Under the pieces are notes generated by a model, which had not been told where the DNA came from, did no database searches, and saw only the letters and a list, made by a program, of their open reading frames with translations. Position numbers and translations under genes: made by a program. From a virus, in IMG/VR virus record IMGVR_UViG_3300049997_000008, positions 1 through 22,609 of that record: DNA of 22,609 nucleotides; one strand, written 5' to 3'. Below, one piece after another: positions 1 through 18,224 of this stretch (the first letter of the stretch is position 1; every line of letters starts with the position of its first letter).

Positions 1-269
1 GCAACCCGCTCGGCCTGCGGATCCGCGCCGAGGGCGGCTCGAGCGAGTTCCTTACGCGCGGCCGCGCGAGCCTGGGCTGGGGTCACTCGGTCGCAATCAC
101 CCAGAAGATACCGGCGCTTCCGCCCGTTCTGCCAGTAGACCACGCACCAGCTCCGATGGCCCGCCGTCGTGACCCGCACGTACAGGCCCCTACAGGCCTC
201 GTCGGCGAAGTCCCGGCGGTGATCGGTCGGGAGGGAGGCGATTGTCTCAGCGTCGAGGCGGTAGCGCAT
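1..269 (-). CDS. int: Tyrosine integrase, N-terminal part (runs off left edge)
   Basis: The minus-strand frame is open from an ATG at 269-267 to the window edge, giving 89 complete codons. The protein fits the arm-type DNA-binding domain (DUF4102-like) at the front of many phage and island tyrosine recombinases. It has a GLYVRVT strand, then SWCVVYW, then NGRKRRYLLGDC, then a helix starting VTPAQARAAARKEL and ending near GADPQ, which is the usual order in this family. The catalytic R-H-R-Y domain would lie beyond the left edge and cannot be checked. An in-frame stop lies upstream of the ATG, and AGAAGG sits 9 bases before it, which supports this start. The tRNA-derived att core lies about 240 bp upstream, the classic int-attP arrangement. 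The gene is transcribed away from attP. No convincing promoter for it was found in 270-372. Confidence 0.85.
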   Translation of the reverse strand, partial: MRYRLDAETIASLPTDHRRDFADEACRGLYVRVTTAGHRSWCVVYWQNGRKRRYLLGDCDRVTPAQARAAARKELARAALGADPQAERV

Positions 270-372: not shown

Positions 373-401
373 TTGACAACGGTGGGGAGGGTGCCTATAT
401 T
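373..401 (+). promoter_or_regulatory. Near-consensus sigma70 promoter for the metalloprotease gene
   Basis: TTGACA (373-378) and TATATT (396-401) are separated by exactly 17 bases. This is a perfect -35 box and a one-mismatch -10 box, followed at 408-415 by GAGGGAGG, five bases before the ATG at 421. The -35 box sits in a small odd palindrome GTTG-A-CAAC (372-380) that might be an operator half, but this is weak. The rest of the 270-420 gap holds no gene. In a lysogen this promoter would be on the int side of the core and would read through the core into host DNA. Confidence 0.75.
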
Positions 402-420
402 AGTAGTGAGGGAGGCGGTT

Positions 421-1080
421 ATGCACTTGAATCTGAGCGGTTTCGCGGTAGCAGGGACGGCACTTGCGCTCGCGGCCGGGATGACGGCAAGTGCACAAGA
501 AGGCTCTTTCAAGGTGAGGATCGAGGGTTCGAATCCCTCCAGGGTCGCCAACACAGTCAACAACTTACAGCCTGGCCCCGCAACTGAGCCGGCCGCATCG
601 CAGGCCGGGGCCATCGCAGGGTCCATTTCCAGGCAGTCCCTGACGGTCTGCATCGCCGACCCGACTGGAATGCTCAAGACTGGCGAACTTGCTCAGATTG
701 AAGCCCTTGCGGCTGCTGCGATAGCGAAAGATGGACGAACCTCCATCTCGCAGTGGCGCGACGTCGAGCTGACACCGGACGGTCTCGCCGGCTGCGAGCA
801 CGTCGTCGTGTTCGTCCCCCGCTACCGGATCGATTGGGAAGGCCTCAACAACGTGGTGACGCCGGCAGCCCTGGAATGCCTCAGCGCGTACGGCGCGAGC
901 TACCAGAGCAACGCGGCGATCTACCCACGCTGCATCCGCCAGGATTCGGGCGGGCGCGCGTACACGCGCTGGCTCGGCCGCGTGATCGCGCACGAGTTGC
1001 TCCACCAGGTGGGCATCCACGACAACGACGGCTCCGCCCTCATGAAGGGTCACCCGTCCCGCGACGACATGGCGCAGTGA
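421..1080 (+). CDS. Exported metzincin-type zinc metalloprotease, gene contains attP
   Basis: The 219-residue protein begins with a signal peptide: a hydrophobic stretch at about 8-20 and an A-S-A cleavage site at 23-25. The C-terminal part has the metzincin zinc motif HELLHQVGIH at 191-200 (ligands H191, H195, H200; catalytic E192), followed by a likely Met-turn at M208 in SALMKG. Four cysteines (77, 125, 153, 171) lie in the exported part and could form disulfides. Start 421 is chosen because a promoter (373-401) and a strong GGAGG ribosome site stand directly before it; an in-frame GTG at 361 lies upstream of the promoter. The stop is 4 bases from the convergent fibre gene. Residues 29-44, just after the signal peptide, are encoded by the tRNA-derived att core, so integration would split the gene. 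Substrate is unknown; host envelope or extracellular proteins are guesses. Confidence 0.8.
   Translation: MHLNLSGFAVAGTALALAAGMTASAQEGSFKVRIEGSNPSRVANTVNNLQPGPATEPAASQAGAIAGSISRQSLTVCIADPTGMLKTGELAQIEALAAAAIAKDGRTSISQWRDVELTPDGLAGCEHVVVFVPRYRIDWEGLNNVVTPAALECLSAYGASYQSNAAIYPRCIRQDSGGRAYTRWLGRVIAHELLHQVGIHDNDGSALMKGHPSRDDMAQ
423..494. repeat. Three copies of GCACTTG beside the att core, possible integrase arm sites
   Basis: GCACTTG occurs at 423-429 and 460-466 on the plus strand and in reverse at 488-494 (CAAGTGC). All lie within 85 bases to the left of the att core and inside the signal-peptide coding region. The last two also share GACGGCA and form an inverted pair. Tyrosine integrases with an arm-binding N-terminal domain bind short repeats in the P and P' arms, so these are candidates. 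I found no exact copy on the right side of the core, so the assignment is tentative. Confidence 0.3.
506..550 (+). other. attP: attP core: 3' half of a tRNA gene, probably tRNA-Glu(UUC)
   Basis: The stretch has exact tRNA geometry from the anticodon loop to the 3' end. Anticodon loop CTTTCAA is at 506-512 (anticodon TTC at 508-510), the stem 3' strand GGTGA at 513-517 and a five-base variable loop at 518-522. The T arm GAGGG-TTCGAAT-CCCTC (523-539) is fully paired. The acceptor strand CAGGGTC is at 540-546, discriminator G at 547 and CCA at 548-550. The 5' half is absent: 501-505 does not pair with the anticodon stem. Anticodon TTC and discriminator G suggest glutamate. A tRNA 3' half next to an integrase gene is the standard form of a tRNA-targeting att site. 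Phage genes flank both sides, so it is attP rather than attL or attR. The exact left limit of the core is unknown. Confidence 0.85.
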
Positions 1081-2032: not shown

Positions 2033-2728
2033 TCAGTCCTTCCGACACGCGATGATCGTGATATAGGCGGGCAGGTTGCTCTCGCTGACCAGCGCATACG
2101 AGCCATAGCTGTGCCCGTGCGAGGCCCCGCTAAGGCTCCCCGTTCCGTGCGTGTGAGCGTCTCCGGCCAAGCTCCCGACGTCGTGACTGTGGCTCGGGTT
2201 TGAGCTGTTCACCGCTATTCTCTCCAAAGGCTGCTCATCAAAAGAGCCGGCAGCCCCGCGCCGTGTGGACGTGATGTCGTGGGTGTGGGCGATGCTCATC
2301 ACGCCCGTGCTTCCTGTGATCGACACCGCGGCGCTACCAACGCTCCCGGTCATGCTGAGGCTCTGCGCCGACAGCACGCCGCTCACGCTGTGCGAGTGCG
2401 TATCGAGTCCGCCGGTGCCGCCGTAAGCGGCCGAGCCGCGGAAGGCGCGATCGTCTGCTGCGGAAACGCGCGTCCATCCGGCCGGGCAGGCGACCGTCGA
2501 GAGCACGATCATCCCGGGAACGATCCCCTCCGCCGAGGGCGCGACCGACCAGGAGAGGTTTCCGCTGCCGTCGTTGGTGAGAATCCGATCGGCGTCGCCC
2601 TGGGTGGCCGGGAACGCGTACCGCACGCCGTTGATGTAATACACGACATCCGCGGCACACACCAGCCCACAGAAGAGCGTCAGCGCGAGCAGAAGAAACG
2701 GGCGCGCCAGCCTCAGTTTTTCGCACAT
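2033..2728 (-). CDS. Exported tail-collar-like HxH fibre-tip protein, paralog 2
   Basis: The 231-residue protein is a clear paralog of the product of 2713-3399. It starts with a signal-peptide-like N-terminus: basic K/R residues, a hydrophobic run at 11-22 and possible cleavage after VCA (23-25). It continues with YYINGVRYAFP, TNDGSGNLSW and the collar-like segment CPAGWTR (81-87), then FRGSAAYGGTGG. Five HxH motifs follow at 111, 148, 180, 192 and 204, and it ends SNLPAYITIIAC. Spaced HxH motifs in trimeric phage fibre tips, as in T4 gp37, coordinate a line of metal ions. Cysteines at 81 and 228 match those of the paralog and could pair after export. The ATG at 2728 overlaps the upstream gene by 16 bases and has no good ribosome site, so translation is probably coupled. 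A signal peptide is unexpected for a virion protein. Confidence 0.7.
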   Translation of the reverse strand: MCEKLRLARPFLLLALTLFCGLVCAADVVYYINGVRYAFPATQGDADRILTNDGSGNLSWSVAPSAEGIVPGMIVLSTVACPAGWTRVSAADDRAFRGSAAYGGTGGLDTHSHSVSGVLSAQSLSMTGSVGSAAVSITGSTGVMSIAHTHDITSTRRGAAGSFDEQPLERIAVNSSNPSHSHDVGSLAGDAHTHGTGSLSGASHGHSYGSYALVSESNLPAYITIIACRKD

Positions 2729-3399
2729 AGGATGACCGCATAGTAGGCGGGAAGGTTGGAGACAGTGGCGGGCGACAGGCTCCCCGCCGCGTGGCTGTGG
2801 CTGGATGCTCCGAGCGTGCCTGACGAGTGGCTGTGACTGCCTCCGGCGAGGCTTCCTGATGTGTGGGCATGGGCGGGGTCTGTGCTGTCGGCGGACGCCG
2901 ACTGGATGACCTCGTAGCCACCGGCCCCAACATATGTCGTCGTCGTCGTGAGACTGTGAGTATGGCTGATGCTCGTGCTGCCCGTGGCCCCGCTGATCGA
3001 CACACTCGAGGTGTCCGTGTCCCCGCTGATCGAGACGCTCTGCGATCCCGAGGTTCCGCTCATCGTGTGCGTGTGCGTGTCGGCCCCCCCAGTCGCTCCT
3101 GCAGAACTCGCCCCACGGAGCACGCGGTTGTCTGCGGCAGAAAGGCGAGTCCAGCCGGTAGGACAGCCTGTCGTCGACATGATCACAGCTCCGGACCAGA
3201 GCCCCTCCGAAGTGGGCACGGCCGCCCATGACAGGTTCCCGGATCCGTCGTTGGTCAGGACGTTGCCGGCGGATCCCTGGGCGGCCGGGAAGATGTAGCC
3301 AACCTCGTTGAAGTAGTACTTCCGGCTTTGCCCCCACACGGCCGCAGCGAGCACCAGCAGAAATCCGGCCATCAGAAAGAGACCAGTGCGTCGTTTCAT
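2713..3399 (-). CDS. Exported tail-collar-like HxH fibre-tip protein, paralog 1
   Basis: The 228-residue protein has a textbook-looking signal peptide: basic MKRR, a hydrophobic core at about 6-22 and possible cleavage near VWG-Q (21-24). It then carries KYYFNEVGYIFP, TNDGSGNLSW, CPTGWTR (79-85) and LRGASSAGATGG. Ser/Thr/Gly-rich stretches follow with five HxH motifs at 109, 146, 177, 189 and 201, and the end is SNLPAYYAVILC. The CPxGWTR...GG..THTH arrangement is common in phage tail-tip proteins. Cysteines at 79 and 225 are shared with the paralog. The ATG at 3399 is preceded by AGGAGG with five-base spacing, one of the strongest ribosome sites in the window. Position at the end of the tail genes supports a fibre or adhesin role. 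Whether it is assembled on the virion or secreted free cannot be told from sequence. Confidence 0.72.
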   Translation of the reverse strand: MKRRTGLFLMAGFLLVLAAAVWGQSRKYYFNEVGYIFPAAQGSAGNVLTNDGSGNLSWAAVPTSEGLWSGAVIMSTTGCPTGWTRLSAADNRVLRGASSAGATGGADTHTHTMSGTSGSQSVSISGDTDTSSVSISGATGSTSISHTHSLTTTTTYVGAGGYEVIQSASADSTDPAHAHTSGSLAGGSHSHSSGTLGASSHSHAAGSLSPATVSNLPAYYAVILCAKN

Positions 3400-4385: not shown

Positions 4386-4846
4386 CAGGCCGCCCCGAAG
4401 CTGAGGGTCCATGTGTAGATCACCAGAACTGCATCCGTCTTCGCGACCTCTTCCGTAACCACGCGGGCGTACATCGTGCCGCCCGACGCAGCGGTGAAAA
4501 GCCCCGCCTCACGGAAGATCAGGCCGTTCCCGGACTGGCTCCCGACCACGAACTTGACCAGCATGCCGGCGGTCTGTTTGGTCCGCTGGCTGATCAGATC
4601 GCGGAACACTTCGGCGCCCAAGGCGACGTCGCCCGCCGCTGGCGCCGTCACGGCGGTGCCAACTGCGCCATGGGTCAGGGTCCCGACGTCGCCGTAGACC
4701 AGATCGCGAAGAAGGTCGAGGCCCGCGTCGACCACGAGGTTGTGGCGCCAGGCACGGGACAGCACCCGGCCCGTGCGAGCGTCGGCCGTCTCGACGCAGA
4801 CGTTCACGCGGGCCCGGATCGTTGCCTTCATGTTCCGAGCTTTCAT
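4385..4846 (-). CDS. Small tail-tip or fibre-base protein
   Basis: The 153-residue product has a beta-strand N-terminus (RARVNVCVETADARTG), then HNLVVDAGLDLLRDLV at about 35-50. Near the C-terminus is LIFREAGLFTAASGG, a pattern like the EiGLF segments often seen in phage fibre and tail-tip proteins. The ATG at 4846 overlaps the tail hub stop in an ATGA; a second in-frame ATG five codons on is also possible. The position directly after the hub gene suggests a role at the tail tip, perhaps anchoring fibres. No signal peptide or catalytic motif is visible. The family assignment is by resemblance only. Confidence 0.58.
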   Translation of the reverse strand: MKARNMKATIRARVNVCVETADARTGRVLSRAWRHNLVVDAGLDLLRDLVYGDVGTLTHGAVGTAVTAPAAGDVALGAEVFRDLISQRTKQTAGMLVKFVVGSQSGNGLIFREAGLFTAASGGTMYARVVTEEVAKTDAVLVIYTWTLSFGAA

Positions 4847-6420
4847 GCGCCGATTTCTCCTGTCCCGATCGCCATGATCCCGATTCTGTTCTCGGGGCCC
4901 ATGGTGTCGACGTCGATCGCGTCCGAGCACTCCACCGTCTCCGTCGCTGCGCGGGTGAGCACGAGGATCTCGCCCTCACGCCCGACCACCAGCGCGCGGC
5001 CGCCCTGCAGCAGCCGGCGGAAGTAGTCCTGCCAGCCCCCGAATGGGTCGCCGGACATCGCCTGGACCGTGTACCAGACCTCTCCCGTCTCGTCGACGAA
5101 CTCCGCGTCGACGGAATCGATCAGCATCTCCTCGCCGCGGATCTGGTGGCGCGGCAGGTCGACCGTCACGATCTGCCCGGGGGTGAAGATTCCGGCGCGG
5201 GAGCGGCCGTTCACGACGGTCCCGATGTGCCCGTAGCGTGCGATCAGCGCGACGGCCGTCTCGAGCGCGGATGCGGCCGAGTTGATCTGGGGCCGGCTCT
5301 CGACGGCCGTGTAGATGCCCGAGCCGCCCTCGATCGCCCGGCGAGCCGCGATCTCGCCCAGGTCCTGATACTGGGTCTTGACCGGGAAGGTGCCCTGGTA
5401 GGTCACCCGGACGCGATCGCCGGTCGTCGGATCGGCGGGTGTGGTCGGGGCGATGAGCACGACGCCGGCGTCCGCCTGTGACACCTGCGCCTGGCCGGCG
5501 TTCCAAAACCAATCGGTGCCGACGTCAACGCCCAGGATCCCGACCGTCTTCTCGACCCACGCGCCGCCGGCGCGGCTCTCCTCGATCGTCGGCTCGGAGC
5601 CCAGCGGGAAGGACGTCGGGAACACGCGCCGCAGGCCATCGCCGACGAGCGTCTCTGTGCGCGGATCTGTCAGGTCCGTGCCCGCGCGGACGATCTGCGT
5701 GTTCCGGTACTTCTGGCGATCACGCCGGACGCGGATCGTCCCGGCCAGCATCGTGTCGCCATCGAACGGCAACTCGGAGACCTCCGACGCGCGAGGACGG
5801 AAGGAGAGGCCCTTGTACTGGTCGATCCTCCAGGAGTACCCGGTGAGTTCGGCCAGGTCGTTGAAGGCCTCGGTGACCGAGACGTCGGCGAAGACGGCCT
5901 TCTCGATGACTGGGCCGTCCGCCACCTCTTGCGTCGTGATCCGCTCGCCCGAGAGGTCGAGTTTCACGATGTCGCGGACGATGTCGTCGACGCTCATCTG
6001 CTCGTAGATCCGGGTGACCGTGCGGCGGTCACAGATGGAGGAGAAGTCGACGGCCGAACAGTCGAAGAACAGCTGCGCCTCTCGCGTCACGCCGTCTTCC
6101 TCCGACTCCGTGCCGCATTCCTCGTACTCCTGCGGCTCCTGGAGGACGCCACCAAAGAGCCGCTGCGCGCCCGTCAGGATCTCGACGCCGTCGGCGGTGA
6201 GGATCTGCGCGGCGTCAGCGTCCGAGGTGAACATCTGGGCCGGGTCGTCCCGGACGACGAGCAGCTCCTGGCCGTCGATCGGGCGGAAGCCGCCGAACGC
6301 GTCGGTGAACGTGATGCTCAGTGTCCCGCGGCCGTTGACCTGGTCGTTCCAGCGCAGTGAGGAGCCGGCGAAGCGCTTGGCGCTGACGTTCACTCCGCCG
6401 ACGAGGATCTCGATCGCCAC
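4843..6420 (-). CDS. Tail hub (baseplate hub-like) protein
   Basis: At 525 residues and directly after the tape measure, this is probably the distal tail hub that closes the tube and carries the tip. The N-terminal 100 residues are strand-rich (AIEILVGGVNVSAKR, GTLSITFTDAFGGFRP) with an early insertion-like stretch. The middle has segments typical of siphophage hub proteins: YEQMSVDDIVRDIV, then ITTQEVADGPVIEKAVFADV and LAELTGYSWRIDQYKGLSF. The C-terminal half includes FTPGQIVTVDLP and EMLIDSVDAEFV, again hub-like. It starts at a GTG (6420), three bases after the tape-measure stop, and its stop overlaps the next gene's ATG. No lysozyme or peptidase motif was noticed. Alternative names for such proteins are gp44-like or Tal N-terminal domain. 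Confidence 0.72.
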   Translation of the reverse strand: MAIEILVGGVNVSAKRFAGSSLRWNDQVNGRGTLSITFTDAFGGFRPIDGQELLVVRDDPAQMFTSDADAAQILTADGVEILTGAQRLFGGVLQEPQEYEECGTESEEDGVTREAQLFFDCSAVDFSSICDRRTVTRIYEQMSVDDIVRDIVKLDLSGERITTQEVADGPVIEKAVFADVSVTEAFNDLAELTGYSWRIDQYKGLSFRPRASEVSELPFDGDTMLAGTIRVRRDRQKYRNTQIVRAGTDLTDPRTETLVGDGLRRVFPTSFPLGSEPTIEESRAGGAWVEKTVGILGVDVGTDWFWNAGQAQVSQADAGVVLIAPTTPADPTTGDRVRVTYQGTFPVKTQYQDLGEIAARRAIEGGSGIYTAVESRPQINSAASALETAVALIARYGHIGTVVNGRSRAGIFTPGQIVTVDLPRHQIRGEEMLIDSVDAEFVDETGEVWYTVQAMSGDPFGGWQDYFRRLLQGGRALVVGREGEILVLTRAATETVECSDAIDVDTMGPENRIGIMAIGTGEIGA

Positions 6421-12006: not shown

Positions 12007-13506
12007 CTACGTCGACTCGACGCCGGCGTTCGTCGCCGCGCCGCGGAACTCGACCGCGCCGACGCCGTAGTCCTCGCGGACCTTCCACTCGACGCCGTCG
12101 ATGCGCCACCCATCCTGCATCTCCAGGAACGGCTCCTGGTTGCCCTCGAGGAAGTCGACTTCGACGCAGGGCATTTCGGCCGGATCTGCGAAGAGGTAGC
12201 GGCGCGTGCCGGTGACACGCGGGGTGCCGACGATGTCGCGGAACAGGCCCTGTACGCGGTTCGGCGTCATGTTGTTCCGCGTACCGGCCTTCGCGCTCTG
12301 GTCAACGTCGTACTGCGACTCGTTGATGACACGCGCGAGGCCTTCGAGACCGGCGCCGAGCACGAGAACGGCGGGGCGGATGTTGAGGAACTCGTTGCCG
12401 GCCGGGTCCATCTGCTCGGCCATCAACACGCGGTCGTCGTCCAGAGCGGCGACGCCGATCTCCGAACCCTCGCCGATGTTGTCGTGGTCGGCGTGGAACA
12501 TCGTCTTGCCATCGCCCATCGCCGGCCCGAGACCGCCGTTGAGCGCGAGGAGGGCGTAGACGTCGGACTCGATCGTCAGCGCTGCGGCGCGGCCAGCCTG
12601 GGCGGAGATCTGGTTGAAGATCCCCATGTCGTCGTTCACGATGGCCTGCCGCGTGAGCGAGATGATGTTGCCCTTGGTCTTGCCGGTGACGCTTTCCTTG
12701 ACGGCGTCCGACACCGCCTTGTTCTTGAACTCGCCGGCCTCGTTCACTTCGTCGAGGACTCCCATGTAGCCCATCCGATAGCGCGGATGCGGCTTGAAGT
12801 CGGACAGGGAGCCGACCGCGCAGAAGCGCCGCCACGTGTCGGGCGTGATCAGGTAGGCGGCGAGCAGCGTCTTATGCAGCGTGTTCTCGAGCGCCACCGC
12901 GAAGTCGCTGGTGCCCTGCGCGCCGATCAGGCTCGCGCGGACGGACAGGATCGACTGGCGGGCGATCTCCATCTTGTCGAGACCGCGGGTCCGGATGCCG
13001 CGCTGCTCCAGGCTTTCGCGCGCCATCTCCAGCAGAGACATCCCGCGGAACTCGCCGGGCTCCAGGGACAGACCGGCGAACGCCGGGTGGTCCGGGTGCT
13101 TCTTCGCGGCCCGGCGAACCAGGTCCGAGGCGCCGGCGCGGACGGTGAGCGCCGCGCCGATTCCGCGTCGGCGCTTGTCCGCCACGTCCTCGCCAACGAT
13201 CACGCGACCCGGCGCCGGCTCGTGCTCGGCGCTGCGCTTCGCGAGCTCGTCGAGCACCACCTTGCGGGTCTGGTCTTCCGTGAGCGCGGGCGATCGGGCG
13301 AGCAGCTCATCCGCGAAGGGCTCGCCCAGCTTCGCGGCTCGAACGATGACGCGGATCTTCTGGCCGCGCTCGAGCTCCGCGCGCTGGGCGATCTGGGCCG
13401 CTTCCTCGGCCGACGGCGGCGCGAACGCGATACGTGCGCGCTGCTCGGGAGCCGGAGTCGTCTCGGCAGCCTTGGGAGCCTCGGGGGTCTCGTTCTTCTC
13501 GGACAT
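12007..13506 (-). CDS. Nested in-frame capsid product (scaffold + capsid), internal start
   Basis: An in-frame ATG at 13506 (M198 of the fusion) would give a 499-residue protein lacking the protease, starting MSEKNETPEAPKAAET. It is preceded by GGAGG with five-base spacing, much better than the full-length start. This could supply most capsid subunits, with the fusion as a minor component carrying the protease, similar in logic to the nested scaffold start in lambda gene C. It is inferred from the ribosome site alone. Confidence 0.6.
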   Translation of the reverse strand: MSEKNETPEAPKAAETTPAPEQRARIAFAPPSAEEAAQIAQRAELERGQKIRVIVRAAKLGEPFADELLARSPALTEDQTRKVVLDELAKRSAEHEPAPGRVIVGEDVADKRRRGIGAALTVRAGASDLVRRAAKKHPDHPAFAGLSLEPGEFRGMSLLEMARESLEQRGIRTRGLDKMEIARQSILSVRASLIGAQGTSDFAVALENTLHKTLLAAYLITPDTWRRFCAVGSLSDFKPHPRYRMGYMGVLDEVNEAGEFKNKAVSDAVKESVTGKTKGNIISLTRQAIVNDDMGIFNQISAQAGRAAALTIESDVYALLALNGGLGPAMGDGKTMFHADHDNIGEGSEIGVAALDDDRVLMAEQMDPAGNEFLNIRPAVLVLGAGLEGLARVINESQYDVDQSAKAGTRNNMTPNRVQGLFRDIVGTPRVTGTRRYLFADPAEMPCVEVDFLEGNQEPFLEMQDGWRIDGVEWKVREDYGVGAVEFRGAATNAGVEST

Positions 13507-14097
13507 GGAATCCTCCAGACTGCGCACGATGACGCAGGTGTTCAGGTCTGCCGGCTTGCTGCGCGTGGTAGCGGCGGGGTCGGCCGGCATTGGGACCATC
13601 GAAATTTCGTAGGGCTCCCAATCAGTGGCCGTCCTGATCGGCAACGCGCCCGCTTTGCTGGCCACGGTCTCTTCGAAACGATGCACCCGGTAGCCGACGC
13701 TGACGGCGCGAATGATCCCGTTACGCACGTCCTGGTAGATTGGCTCGACGTCGGCGCGGGTCGAGAAGCGGACAGTAGCGCGGCCCTTGCCGCCGACCAC
13801 CGACGCCGACTCTACGACGCCGATGATGTCGGTCAGGCTGTAGGCGCTGTGCGCGTTCAGCAGCGGGGCGCCAGCGTTCAGGCGGTCGAGGCGCACGTTC
13901 TCAGGCTTCAGCGCGAGCTTCTCGGTGTAGCGCGCTCCGGTGTTCCAGTCGTAGCGCTCGACGGGCGCGCCCGTCGAGAAGATCAGGTCGACGGTGCGCG
14001 CCTCATCGTTGACGGACTTCGGGACGAAGGCTGCAGAGAGAGAGAGAGGCGGAACCTGGAGCGTTTCGAGCTTTGCAGAAGCGGACGCACGGTCCAT
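12007..14097 (-). CDS. Prohead protease - major capsid fusion protein
   Basis: The 696-residue protein combines an N-terminal HK97-type prohead protease (S78) with a major capsid protein. The protease covers about 15-185. Likely catalytic residues are H83 (LLNAHS) and S133 (AVSVGY), with the same 50-residue spacing as H65 and S115 in HK97 gp4; the family's EISMVPMPADP segment is at 164-174. Residues about 198-310 are charged and helical and may act as scaffold (delta domain). The capsid fold follows, with SLLEMARESLEQRG, LITPDTWRRFC, KTMFHADHDNIG and a C-terminal VEWKVREDYGVGA. The full-length start has no clear ribosome site, whereas M198 has a strong one. Protease-capsid fusions are known in other phages. 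The gene starts 64 bases after the zinc-ribbon gene. Confidence 0.82.
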   Translation of the reverse strand: MDRASASAKLETLQVPPLSLSAAFVPKSVNDEARTVDLIFSTGAPVERYDWNTGARYTEKLALKPENVRLDRLNAGAPLLNAHSAYSLTDIIGVVESASVVGGKGRATVRFSTRADVEPIYQDVRNGIIRAVSVGYRVHRFEETVASKAGALPIRTATDWEPYEISMVPMPADPAATTRSKPADLNTCVIVRSLEDSMSEKNETPEAPKAAETTPAPEQRARIAFAPPSAEEAAQIAQRAELERGQKIRVIVRAAKLGEPFADELLARSPALTEDQTRKVVLDELAKRSAEHEPAPGRVIVGEDVADKRRRGIGAALTVRAGASDLVRRAAKKHPDHPAFAGLSLEPGEFRGMSLLEMARESLEQRGIRTRGLDKMEIARQSILSVRASLIGAQGTSDFAVALENTLHKTLLAAYLITPDTWRRFCAVGSLSDFKPHPRYRMGYMGVLDEVNEAGEFKNKAVSDAVKESVTGKTKGNIISLTRQAIVNDDMGIFNQISAQAGRAAALTIESDVYALLALNGGLGPAMGDGKTMFHADHDNIGEGSEIGVAALDDDRVLMAEQMDPAGNEFLNIRPAVLVLGAGLEGLARVINESQYDVDQSAKAGTRNNMTPNRVQGLFRDIVGTPRVTGTRRYLFADPAEMPCVEVDFLEGNQEPFLEMQDGWRIDGVEWKVREDYGVGAVEFRGAATNAGVEST
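13507..13516 (-). promoter_or_regulatory. Internal ribosome-binding site in the protease-capsid gene
   Basis: On the minus strand GGAGG (13516-13512) lies five bases before the ATG at 13506. It falls in codons for LEDS, at the end of the protease domain and the start of the acidic linker. It supports separate translation of the capsid part. Confidence 0.6.
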
Positions 14098-14368: not shown

Positions 14369-14658
14369 TCGATAGGCCTGCCGTACGTTCTGGCATCGGT
14401 GGTCTTGACCCGCATGGTACCACCAGGCAGCCGGAACGCGGGAAGCGCGCCTTTGAAGATGTCCCGGTAGATCGTCCGCGTGCTGACGTGCCAGTAGCGC
14501 GCGAGCTCGCCCACGGACACGCTTGGCTCAGAGTGGGTCTCGATGTCGACCACTGCTGGCCGCGGCGCTGATGCGCATCGCGCCCCCGCGGTGGCCGGGC
14601 GCGTCGCGAGGGAACGAGACGAGACGGCGTTGTTCGTGAGGTCCCCAGTCCTGATCAC
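14365..14658 (-). CDS. Excisionase/MerR-type helix-turn-helix protein
   Basis: The 97-residue protein has a flexible Ala/Arg/Ser-rich first half and a C-terminal HTH_17-like DNA-binding domain at about 47-92: VSVGELARYWHVSTRTIY, then GALPAFRLPGGTMRVK. This is the winged-helix type shared by excisionases and small regulators. The GTG start at 14658 overlaps the glycosyltransferase stop in a GTGA; in-frame starts further upstream would run deep into that gene. It could be a recombination directionality factor for the integrase, a regulator of the cassette, or a terminase-like accessory. Its place in the late operon is unusual for an excisionase. Confidence 0.7.
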   Translation of the reverse strand: MIRTGDLTNNAVSSRSLATRPATAGARCASAPRPAVVDIETHSEPSVSVGELARYWHVSTRTIYRDIFKGALPAFRLPGGTMRVKTTDARTYGRPIE

Positions 14659-15401
14659 GCGCTCTTCGCCTCCAATCGTTTCGACTCTTTCTCGGCCTCG
14701 CGCCAGAGCCGGGCCAGCGGCTCGAGCGCTCGATCCGCCCCCATCTGCCGAAACACTGTGTGTCGTAGCCGGCTCTTGATGTGCAGCACTCGGGCCTGCC
14801 CTGGCGCGGCCAGCTCTCGCGCCCATGACGAGTCCTCGCAGTTCCACTCGGCGCATGGGATCTCGAAGAGTCCCACTCGAAGGGCGCGCACCGTGCCCAG
14901 CTCGAGCAGCGATCCAAGCGCAGCCTGGTTGCAGCCGCCATACGTCCTCTTCCAGACCTGGTGCTCGGCCGGGCTCCTGAGCAGGCGTAGATTCTGGTCA
15001 CGCCAGGCCCGCATGAATAGGCGCGTGCGATCGTTCACGCGCAGGAACACCGCGCCGCCGTTGAATGGGTAGCGCGCGTCAGGCTCGCGCATCGTGTAGG
15101 CGATGTCGAAGGCCTGCAGCCAGATCTCGTCCAGCGGACGCAGGACGATCGTGTCGCCATCGATCAGCAGGATCTGTTGCGCGTCCGAGGCCGTCGCGAC
15201 AACCTCGGCCCACCAGTCGAGCTTCTGGGTGTTCGTGGTGTGGGACGCCACGCCGAACGGGCTGTGATGCGTGCTCGGCGTGATGCGTTCGACGCGCACG
15301 TCCCACCCCGCGCAATGCTTCAGCGCCGTGTGACGCAGCACGGCCGCCATGCGCTCGAATTGCGCCGGTCCGAAGTAGCAGGCGGCGAGCAGCGGCCTCA
15401 T
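14655..15401 (-). CDS. GT-A fold glycosyltransferase with DGD motif
   Basis: A 248-residue protein with the features of a nucleotide-sugar-dependent GT-A enzyme. There is an N-terminal strand (LLAACYF), a helix, the metal-binding motif ILLIDGDTIVL (D81, D83), FNGGAVFL at 113-120, and a late NQAAL...LHIKS segment (H207). The C-terminal 25 residues are charged and helical. The start at 15401 makes an ATGA overlap with the methyltransferase gene; longer versions of the frame extend into that gene and lack support. It probably adds a sugar to a phage protein or a host surface glycan. Donor and acceptor cannot be told from sequence. It is soluble, with no membrane segment. Confidence 0.75.
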   Translation of the reverse strand: MRPLLAACYFGPAQFERMAAVLRHTALKHCAGWDVRVERITPSTHHSPFGVASHTTNTQKLDWWAEVVATASDAQQILLIDGDTIVLRPLDEIWLQAFDIAYTMREPDARYPFNGGAVFLRVNDRTRLFMRAWRDQNLRLLRSPAEHQVWKRTYGGCNQAALGSLLELGTVRALRVGLFEIPCAEWNCEDSSWARELAAPGQARVLHIKSRLRHTVFRQMGADRALEPLARLWREAEKESKRLEAKSA

Positions 15402-16600
15402 GCTCGCGGCCTCCGGCTGCCGAACAGCGGCTTGCGGCGCTTCTTCTCTTTGCTCTTGTAGTTCGCAGCAAAGTCCTCGCGCTCGGCCGCGGACGCGAGC
15501 CACAGCCGGGGCAGGACGCAGAGCCGAGGCTTCACCGTTGCCAGCGCGCGCAGGAAGGCGAGGCGTTCGTCCGGGCCTTGCTGGCATTCCTCCCGCCAGG
15601 TCTTGACGAGCGCGCGGCCTACGTCCGTTGCCGCCACGAACAGGAGCTGCTCGGGCGCGTGGATCGGCACGCGCAGATCCAGGATCGCCTCTTCCGTCAG
15701 GGCGCGCTCCTCGGAAGTGCCGACGTCCTGGGCGAGCACGTGCTCGCTGGCGAACGGGACGGCGGCGTCCCACCGCTCAAGGATCCGGAAGCCTGCGCCG
15801 AGCAGCTCCCACGGGACCGGGGCGCCGCGGCCGACGAAGAGGTTCAGGCGCCACGAGAGCGCCCAATCATCCGCGACGATCACCTGGACGCCTGGGGGCT
15901 GAACCTGCCTCGTCAGCTCCCTGGTGATGACGCAGGCGCCTAGGTTGTCCAGGCGCGGCGCGATGATCTGGGGGCGCGAACACAGCGTCTCGCCGTCCCG
16001 CCGGTAGAAGCCCACCATGCCGACCTTGCCCTCGTCGACCAGGCGGACGTCGAACGGTCGGCCGAGGTCGGCGGCCATCCGGTTGAGTTCCTCGTAGACG
16101 ATGCGGCTCGGCGTCCGGCTGTCCTGGGGCGAGTAGTCGTGGCAGAGCAGCAAGCCGCCCGGCCGCAGCCGCTCAAACCACGGGAGATCCAGGGCGATGC
16201 GGTTGTGGTCGCCATCGACGAAGACCAGGTCGTAGACCGCGTCGGACGCCCGGGACAGGTAGTCCCACGAGCGGATGGCCTGCGCGGCGATGTTGCGGCA
16301 GCCGTGCCGGCGCCACAACTCGCCGGCGGCGGCTACTTCGCGCGGCTCCGCCGTGAGTGATGTGATCTGCGCGAGCGGGGCCGCATTCGAGATGACGTAC
16401 CCCGAGCCGCCGTGCCCGGTGCCGATCTCCAGGATCCGGGCGCCCTGCGTGTTGTACTGGCGCGCGAGCAGCCACAGCGCCGCGAGCTGGTAGTCGAGCA
16501 CCTTCAGCTTGACGCGCGGCAGCGGCGGCAGCGCCGCGCCCATGAGGGCGAGCTCGCGCGTCAGGGTCGCCGCCTCTGCCTCGAGCTGAATCGGGATCAC
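15398..16600 (-). CDS. SAM methyltransferase fused to a glycosyltransferase-like domain
   Basis: Residues about 45-205 of the 400-residue protein form a class I SAM-dependent methyltransferase: motif I ARILEIGTGHGGSG (54-67), YDLVFVDGDHN (123-133) and RPGGLLLCHDYS (146-157). This pattern is typical of sugar or small-molecule O-methyltransferases (Methyltransf_24-like). Residues 210-400 form a second domain. It lacks a firm match, but its end (FVAATDVGRALVKTWREE, GPDERLAFLRAL, LCVLPRLW) resembles the C-terminal part of GT-A nucleotide-sugar transferases. The GTG start at 16600 overlaps the upstream stop in a GTGA; the much longer open frame upstream lies on top of the neighbouring gene and is rejected. 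The basic C-terminus (KSKEKKRRK) is notable. It may methylate a sugar added by its neighbours. Confidence 0.72.
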   Translation of the reverse strand: MIPIQLEAEAATLTRELALMGAALPPLPRVKLKVLDYQLAALWLLARQYNTQGARILEIGTGHGGSGYVISNAAPLAQITSLTAEPREVAAAGELWRRHGCRNIAAQAIRSWDYLSRASDAVYDLVFVDGDHNRIALDLPWFERLRPGGLLLCHDYSPQDSRTPSRIVYEELNRMAADLGRPFDVRLVDEGKVGMVGFYRRDGETLCSRPQIIAPRLDNLGACVITRELTRQVQPPGVQVIVADDWALSWRLNLFVGRGAPVPWELLGAGFRILERWDAAVPFASEHVLAQDVGTSEERALTEEAILDLRVPIHAPEQLLFVAATDVGRALVKTWREECQQGPDERLAFLRALATVKPRLCVLPRLWLASAAEREDFAANYKSKEKKRRKPLFGSRRPRA

Positions 16601-17352
16601 CGTGGGCCTCCTGCGGTATGCGAAAGGCGGGCGAGGCGCTGGTGGCGACTCACGGCGTCCCACGCCGCCTGGCCATCGATCCGTCCGGGGAGCTTCCCCG
16701 CCCAGCGCCTGGCGTCTCCCGGGTAGTGGTTGATGCCAGCCGTCTTCACGTCCGGCGTGAACTTCGGGAAGGTGTTCCACTCGTTCCCGAGGATCAGCAT
16801 CCGCAGGGGGTGCGCGTGCAGAGAGCGAATCAGAGCGCCCTGGTCGCGCTGCGCGTGGATCTCCCACTCCGCGCGCCAGCCTTCGAGGAACTCGCGGGCT
16901 GCTGGGCATCGGCGAAAGCCCCAGACGCCGCCGTTGTACTGCATGGCCCAGAGCGTCCCGACCGCCTTCTCGAGCTCGACGTACTCCTCGAGGTTGTTCC
17001 GCCGCTGGAAGCTGTGAAGCGTCTCGCCGACGTCGCGGCAGATGAGGAACTCCCAACCCGACTCGAGCCAGCGGAAGAGCGTGTAGACCGGGGCGACGAT
17101 CTCGGTATCCGCGTCGAGATAGACGACGGTCTCCCACTCGGCCGGGGCCAGGTCGTAGGCCCGCAGCTTCGCGCGGCGGCCGCCGACATCGCTGTCGGGC
17201 TGCGAGACGAGGACGTCCTCCGGACCGATGGGCGAGGCTGCGCACAGCGCGATGGGCACGTCGGGCATGTGGCGCTTGGCGCTCTCCATCATGCGCAGCG
17301 CGCACGCCCGAGCCGGGGCCCCGAACGCGACGCAGTAGAGGCCGCGCGTCAC
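16597..17352 (-). CDS. GT8-like GT-A glycosyltransferase
   Basis: The 251-residue protein has a GT-A layout. RGLYCVAFGAPARACAL is at the start, and KLRAYDLAPAEWETVVYLDADTEI follows with the DxD motif at D80-D82. NGGVWGFRR is at 140-148, and a late HYPGDARRWAGK (from H209) resembles the HxxGxxKPW signature of family GT8. These enzymes use nucleotide sugars with a divalent metal. The GTG start at 17352 makes a GTGA overlap with the GT-B gene; the longer frame starting at 17406 is not supported. Acceptor is unknown. The gene is one of four sugar-modification genes chained between portal and capsid. Confidence 0.75.
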   Translation of the reverse strand: MTRGLYCVAFGAPARACALRMMESAKRHMPDVPIALCAASPIGPEDVLVSQPDSDVGGRRAKLRAYDLAPAEWETVVYLDADTEIVAPVYTLFRWLESGWEFLICRDVGETLHSFQRRNNLEEYVELEKAVGTLWAMQYNGGVWGFRRCPAAREFLEGWRAEWEIHAQRDQGALIRSLHAHPLRMLILGNEWNTFPKFTPDVKTAGINHYPGDARRWAGKLPGRIDGQAAWDAVSRHQRLARLSHTAGGPR

Positions 17353-18224
17353 GCCGCTTCCCCCTGGGCGAAGCGTTGGGAAAAGCCCTCGGCGTGCGCC
17401 CGACACCAGGCCTCTACGGTGAACGGCTCGGTGATCGCGCGCAGCGCCTCGCTGTTGACTGTCGGCTGCGTCGTTGCAAGCTTGAGCGCGCGCACCAAAC
17501 CCGCGGCATCACCGCGCGGATACCTCACGATCCCGGGATGGGAGGGCAGCTCGTCGAGGATGCCGACGCCACGCGGGATGACCACGGTGACGCCACACGC
17601 GAGGGCCTCGAGCGGCGGCATCGGCCCGCCCTCCACCAGGCTCGGGCACACCAGGACGTCGAGGTGCTGGTAGAACTGCGGCATCTCGGCCCAGGGGTAG
17701 ACCTTCGTCGGCACCGGCCAGCCGCGGCCGCTGGCGACCCAGTCCACGTCCGGGGTGGACCGCACGACGTGCCGGATCCAGCTCTCGCCCTTGCGGTGGT
17801 TCTTGTAGGCGAACCCGGCCAGGCCGACAACGGACCGGCGGCGCCGCGGGTGCGGGGAGGGGACGAAGCGGAAGCGCTCCACCGGCAACGGCGGCTGAAT
17901 CGTCGGGCCGCACGCCTCAAGGCTCCGGCCGTAGAGCCTGTTCATTGTCACCCGCAGATCGACTCGGCGAGCGATCGCGTCGAAGAGCTTCGCCTTTGGG
18001 CTCCCGGGCGGGTGCTCCTCTCGATGCGTGAAGAGGGATGCCACCGTGCGCTGCTCCCAGCCCGGGGAGACCTGTGTTTCGAAGTACCCCATCAGGTAGA
18101 GCACATCCGCGAAGCCGTCGGGGGCGGGTGTGAGAGACCAGCCGAGCCCATCGCGCAGGTAGCGCGCGAACCGCGGTAGGATCCTGTCGGCGTCGAGGTT
18201 GCGACAGATGACGTTGACCCTCAT
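17349..18224 (-). CDS. GT-B fold glycosyltransferase (GT4-like)
   Basis: The 291-residue protein looks like a compact GT-B enzyme of the GT4 type. The C-terminal domain starts with VVGLAGFAYKNHRKGESW, followed by DVDWVASGRGWP. It then has the hallmark LVCPSLVEGGPMPPLEALACG with the EX7E motif E198-E206, and VTVVIPRGVG. The N-terminal domain begins VNVICRNLDADRI and is shorter than usual. The ATG at 18224 overlaps the portal stop in an ATGA. It is probably the first sugar-modifying enzyme of the cassette and translated by coupling to the portal gene. Whether it acts on virion proteins or on host surface sugars cannot be told. Confidence 0.78.
   Translation of the reverse strand: MRVNVICRNLDADRILPRFARYLRDGLGWSLTPAPDGFADVLYLMGYFETQVSPGWEQRTVASLFTHREEHPPGSPKAKLFDAIARRVDLRVTMNRLYGRSLEACGPTIQPPLPVERFRFVPSPHPRRRRSVVGLAGFAYKNHRKGESWIRHVVRSTPDVDWVASGRGWPVPTKVYPWAEMPQFYQHLDVLVCPSLVEGGPMPPLEALACGVTVVIPRGVGILDELPSHPGIVRYPRGDAAGLVRALKLATTQPTVNSEALRAITEPFTVEAWCRAHAEGFSQRFAQGEAA

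Follow-up and report, generated by a model that had tools for sequence, protein, structure and literature searches.

What becomes of a phage gene when the phage's own attachment site lies inside it, in frame, between the export signal and the functional domain of the encoded protein? This question is raised by the left end of IMG/VR record IMGVR_UViG_3300049997_000008, a linear virus record that represents a fragment and that was analysed over its whole length of 22,609 bases (the window). The minus strand of the window carries genes for terminase, portal, capsid, tape measure and tail proteins, followed toward the left end by an open reading frame (ORF 421-1080) on the plus strand and then by the start of an integrase gene on the minus strand. 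A sequence-only reading of this DNA had proposed that attP is located within ORF 421-1080, that this ORF encodes an exported metalloprotease, and that integration would split the gene and excision would rebuild it. Our best explanation, to which we assign a probability of roughly 0.6 as a whole, is that the window comes from a temperate tailed phage of some bacterium, and that its attP core at 506-550, a copied tRNA-Glu(UUC) 3' half, lies within the gene of an exported HExxH protein, just downstream of the signal peptide, so that integration would split this gene. The features on which the argument is built are collected in Table 1.

Table 1. Features at the left end of the window (ORF, open reading frame).
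Feature	Position	Strand	Basis
Tyrosine integrase gene, N-terminal part (start ATG 269; runs off the left window end)	1..269	-	Arm-DNA-bind_3, phrog_1
Promoter TTGACA-N17-TATATT, sigma-70-type	373..401	+	11/12 matches
Ribosome binding site GGGAGG, 5 nt before ATG 421	410..415	+	sequence
Exported HExxH protein (predicted), att core in frame	421..1080	+	219 aa ORF
Signal peptide-like segment MHLNLSGFAVAGTALALAAGMTASA, residues 1-25, predicted cleavage after ASA	421..495	+	crude von Heijne-type score
3' fragment of tRNA-Glu(UUC) type (position 32 to CCA), candidate attP core	506..550	+	sequence, ARAGORN, T-arm test
Linker coding region, low complexity, without in-frame ATG/GTG/TTG	551..639	+	sequence
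C-terminal domain, 4 Cys	640..1077	+	coding score
HELLHQVGIHD zinc-protease-like motif	991..1023	+	sequence
SALM, resembles Met-turn	1033-1044	+	sequence

A tRNA 3' half next to the start of a probable integrase gene

The core comprises 45 nt and contains the complete 3' half of a tRNA, from the anticodon loop to CCA, with the 5' half absent. Its loop is C-U-UUC-A-A (U33-UUC-A37-A38, anticodon UUC for Glu), and it continues with the 3' strand of the anticodon stem (GGTGA), a 5-nt variable loop (GGATC), a perfect T arm (GAGGG-TTCGAAT-CCCTC), the 7 nt CAGGGTC, G73 and CCA. ARAGORN detected no complete tRNA in the window. When a strict test for a T arm, 8 nt and CCA was run on 1.76 Mb of sequence (the window plus related phage and genome loci), it returned the core fragment, together with its copy in locus L001, and two complete tRNA genes, and nothing else. 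Because this test is so selective, chance does not account for the match: 506-550 is a true tRNA 3' fragment, far beyond chance. Repeats around the core that could serve as arm sites are short and weak.

The gene next to the core probably encodes a tyrosine integrase. Residues 14-88 of the minus-strand ORF 269->3 match the Pfam domain Arm-DNA-bind_3 (E 3.2e-15), and the N-terminal part also matches the PHROG integrase family phrog_1 (E 5e-4); the catalytic domain lies beyond the window end. The distance between the start of the integrase gene and the core is 237 nt, as is usual for an attP. Close relatives of the integrase N-terminus were absent from viral contigs.

Integrase gene, core, ORF 421-1080 and tail genes are contiguous in the record. 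This is the phage (attP) arrangement, and it differs from that of a single integrated prophage. Unintegrated or concatemeric phage DNA would give this contiguity, as would, less simply, a tandem of two elements; tandem prophages that share att cores do occur, as in M. abscessus (PMC9934374).

One reading frame through the core

ORF 421-1080 is open throughout, and the core, which codes for FKVRIEGSNPSRVA, falls within the codons of residues 29-44. On this point, as on the tRNA origin of the core, the sequence-only reading is borne out, and it was also right about how the parts are distributed: promoter, ribosome binding site, start codon and signal peptide-like segment are found on the integrase side, the HExxH domain on the other. 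At a looser threshold of 9/12 matches, one promoter-type site was found, against 0.2 expected in shuffles. The signal peptide was called with a crude von Heijne-type score; by this measure, only 106 of the 16,788 ATG starts in GC-rich related loci (0.6%) score as high as the start at 421, and within the window the starts at 421 and 3399 are the only ones to do so, both of them with a ribosome site. The n-region of this candidate Sec signal peptide contains neither Lys nor Arg.

Codon usage differs between the two sides of the core. For 640-1077 the coding score is +0.31 per codon, which is the sole positive value among the six frames and typical for genes of this phage. For 421-504 it is -0.21 per codon, the best of the six frames but weak when set against the structural genes (0.42 +/- 0.25). 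The first in-frame ATG, GTG or TTG after the core is ATG 670, which already lies inside the domain; since there is no such codon between the core and this position, translation of the domain has to begin at the core or upstream of it. On composition alone, the chance that a frame from 421 arrives open and in register with the domain is 0.043, a value computed before the signal peptide (0.6%) and the promoter are taken into account. Expression of the full-length gene in the phage form is probable, given its strong promoter and ribosome site and its uninterrupted frame. A GTG at 514-516, inside the core and with AAGAAGG just outside it, is a possible second start, which would give a non-exported form from phage DNA only.

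Some distance from the core, at 2033-3399, the window encodes two paralogous proteins that look tail collar-like by eye and start with hydrophobic or signal peptide-like segments (MKRRTGLFLMAGFLLVLAAAVWGQ; LARPFLLLALTLFCGLVCA). The corresponding DNA repeat spans 121 nt with 71% identity. The phage end around these genes may hold several exported proteins.

The HExxH domain

The motif of ORF 421-1080 can be written as HExxHxxGxxD (or HExxHxxGxH), as opposed to the canonical HExxHxxGxxH, and because of this deviation we treat the metalloprotease identity as a motif-level call only. The domain, which ends in HELLHQVGIHDNDGSALM plus 17 residues, has no significant match in Pfam, NCBIfam, PHROGs or the PDB, and a single-sequence AlphaFold model of it has a poor fold (pLDDT 44). 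The HExxHxxGxxD/H-like motif and the nearby Met-turn-like SALM recall the metzincins (matrixin M10, snapalysin M7). For M10 membership the third histidine comes one residue early, and the HExxHxxGxxD of snapalysin fits better. ORF 421-1080 differs from both of these metzincin families in the very short spacing to the Met and in matching no profile. What stands of the earlier description as an exported metalloprotease is a signal peptide-like start and a zinc-protease-like motif; the protease part is weakened by the non-canonical motif, the missing family match and the poor fold.

Searches for relatives, host and lysogen

No significant relative of the ORF 421-1080 protein was found in viral contigs (searched with peptide patterns plus a degenerate HExxH...HD DNA pattern), phages, plasmids, Pfam, PHROGs, NCBIfam or the PDB, and there was none in 46 genomes from the phylum to which an Eisenbacteria MAG belongs. 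The exact 45-mer of the core was unmatched in a collection that represents 84,980 species by one genome each, its 34-mer and 25-mer were not found in viral contigs, and versions of the core with 1-3 mismatches were not found in two MAGs, one phylum and one class. BLAST searches of phages, plasmids and E. coli with the core as query gave partial or diverged matches only, and many of the best phage matches were tRNA-Asp genes. Neither a lysogen or prophage of this phage nor the host tRNA was found in the genomes searched.

Terminase relatives with 60-72% identity occur in IMG/VR and on two MAG contigs; at the tail and att ends, however, these sequences do not match the window. In the parts that were searched of a 41-kb Eisenbacteria-filed MAG contig and of long viral records, there was neither a relative of the protein nor a tRNA. 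The large tail-region protein at 4843-6420, a possible route to phages sharing this genome end, had no relatives in viral contigs; among 50,697 phage records its sole relative (31% identity) belongs to the Methanosarcinales-assigned virus BK063672.

Other genes of the phage were noted in passing. Between the portal and capsid genes, at 14655-18224, lies a cluster that encodes a group-1 glycosyltransferase (Glycos_transf_1, E 1e-9), a Methyltransf_24 protein (E 8e-10) and two more proteins. Three of the cluster proteins have relatives with 44-72% identity in an Eisenbacteria-filed MAG contig, of which the terminase is 71% identical to that of the window and the portal only 32%. At 12007-14097, a head maturation protease (Peptidase_S78) and the capsid protein are fused into one protein of 696 aa, as in PHROG 4523.

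What integration would do

Based on how tRNA-targeting tyrosine integrases work, we propose a model for the integration of this phage and its consequences for ORF 421-1080. The attP core would lie in the linker between the signal peptide and the HExxH domain of an exported protein, and the integrase would recombine it with a tRNA-Glu gene of the host. In the lysogen, the 5' half of the host tRNA would then be joined to window position 506 onwards, which would restore the tRNA and leave the remainder of the domain behind it, without promoter, ribosome site and signal peptide. The other end of the prophage would carry the integrase gene, the promoter and the signal peptide, followed by the tRNA 3' fragment and reading into host DNA. 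The exported protein would be made from neither junction, but only from unintegrated phage DNA, that is in early infection or after induction. GTG 514 might give a cytoplasmic form in the lysogen, but its candidate ribosome site AAGAAGG would be lost.

Because of this anatomy, a split of the gene on integration is likely, provided that 506-550 is a working attP. The tRNA fragment, the nearby integrase gene, the promoter with 11/12 matches, the signal peptide, the coding domain, the join with its chance of about 4% and the contiguity all speak for it; the weak 5' codon usage, the lack of a relative and of a host tRNA match, the GTG at 514 and the n-region without Lys or Arg speak against it. 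The earlier claim that integration splits the gene and excision rebuilds it therefore has the anatomy on its side and holds only under the same proviso. Overlap of a core with a coding sequence is in itself unremarkable, since 626 of the 3919 tRNA islands in Islander overlap an annotated CDS (276 of these hypothetical), which also argues against reading the present case as special (PMC4383910).

Whether such a split has been selected is a separate matter. In a selected switch, integration would turn the exported phage protease off, and excision or infection would turn it on: promoter and signal peptide would be joined to the catalytic domain in unintegrated DNA only, so that the enzyme would be restricted to lytic growth or early infection with no repressor involved. 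We regard this as possible, though less likely than not. As pure speculation, the host cell of a lysogen might gain from keeping the gene silent, and the protein might have a role in lysis or a target in the envelope. Exactly the same anatomy is expected if attP and gene are real and the split is a by-product of a core that ended up in an accessory gene, within a linker that tolerates it; the two accounts differ solely on whether the split was selected, and we consider the by-product a serious possibility, though at somewhat less than even odds. The linker that holds the core is indeed of low complexity and directly follows the signal peptide, a position at which 16 foreign residues come at little cost, and tRNA att fragments that overlap coding sequences are common (PMC4383910). 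Strong expression signals, an open frame and a complete gene that is probably expressed in the phage form weigh on the other side, but are still compatible with a by-product.

The frame through the core might also be an accident, with the signal-peptide ORF and the domain being separate, for instance as parts of tandem elements at one tRNA site or around the relic of an intergenic attP. The core is open in two of its three forward frames, the codon usage of 421-504 is weak, and tandem prophages with common att cores are on record (PMC9934374). Against this, an open join in register is expected in only about 4% of cases by composition, the left piece provides just those elements that are missing from the right one (promoter, ribosome site, export signal), and in the right one no ATG, GTG or TTG occurs from the core to ATG 670 inside the domain; we therefore find an accidental frame unlikely. 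Less probable still is that integration changes the product, so that the lysogen makes the domain without its signal peptide, as a cytoplasmic form, from GTG 514 or from a start in the host tRNA. Being part of the core, the GTG would persist after integration, and Mx8 and BPs make altered proteins upon integration (PMC6070905, PMC4557955), but the AAGAAGG in front of it is outside the core and would be lost, and the four Cys residues together with the signal peptide point to an exported protein.

In the literature that we found, attP within a phage gene is so far known for repressors and integrases, that is for genes of the lysogeny decision itself. An exported effector under such control would demonstrate direct gating of a secreted protein by integration state. 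Lysogenic conversion genes, which are often near att sites, are usually on in the lysogen; an exported effector that is off in the lysogen would be the reverse. The model also provides a cue for searching other prophages, namely gene halves with a signal peptide at one att junction and, at the opposite one, orphan domains that follow the tRNA.

Comparison with known systems

The closest parallel is found in the BPs-type mycobacteriophages, whose repressor gene contains the attP core and loses a C-terminal degradation tag on integration (PMC4557955, PMC9934374). This is the related principle to which the sequence-only reading had pointed. The arrangement also occurs in Gordonia phages, where about half of those with identified att sites show it (PMC5559632). 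As in the window, a core that is often derived from a tRNA lies in frame in a phage gene beside the integrase gene, and integration parts the 5' from the 3' portion. However, the BPs-type gene encodes a repressor that loses only its C-terminal tag and is active in the truncated form, whereas here integration would strip the gene of the predicted exported HExxH protein of its promoter and signal peptide, and hence switch it off in the lysogen. ORF 421-1080 does not have the make-up of a BPs-type repressor with an ssrA-like tag: it has a signal peptide-like start and an HExxH motif, and its C-terminus, SRDDMAQ, differs from an ssrA-like AA tag.

In the Myxococcus phage Mx8, attP lies in the integrase gene, which is altered by integration (PMC6070905), and in the fusellovirus SSV1 and SSV-type elements it likewise lies in the integrase gene, which is split (PMC8371274; also PMC4383910). 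These systems share with the window an attP inside a phage coding gene, but the interrupted gene is that of the integrase itself, whereas here the integrase gene is separate, adjacent and on the other strand. Excision rebuilds a functional gene in the case of SP-beta and spsM and of helper-embedded PICIs in late genes of the helper (PMC8270828, PMC10111431); in those cases it is a gene of the host or of the helper phage that is split, whereas here it would be the integrating element's own. A limited literature search found no case of an attP inside the gene of an exported enzyme, in line with the earlier statement that no example with an exported protease was known. An attP within a phage gene is thus an established principle; within the scope of this search, what is new is the gene of a predicted exported protein as its proposed site.
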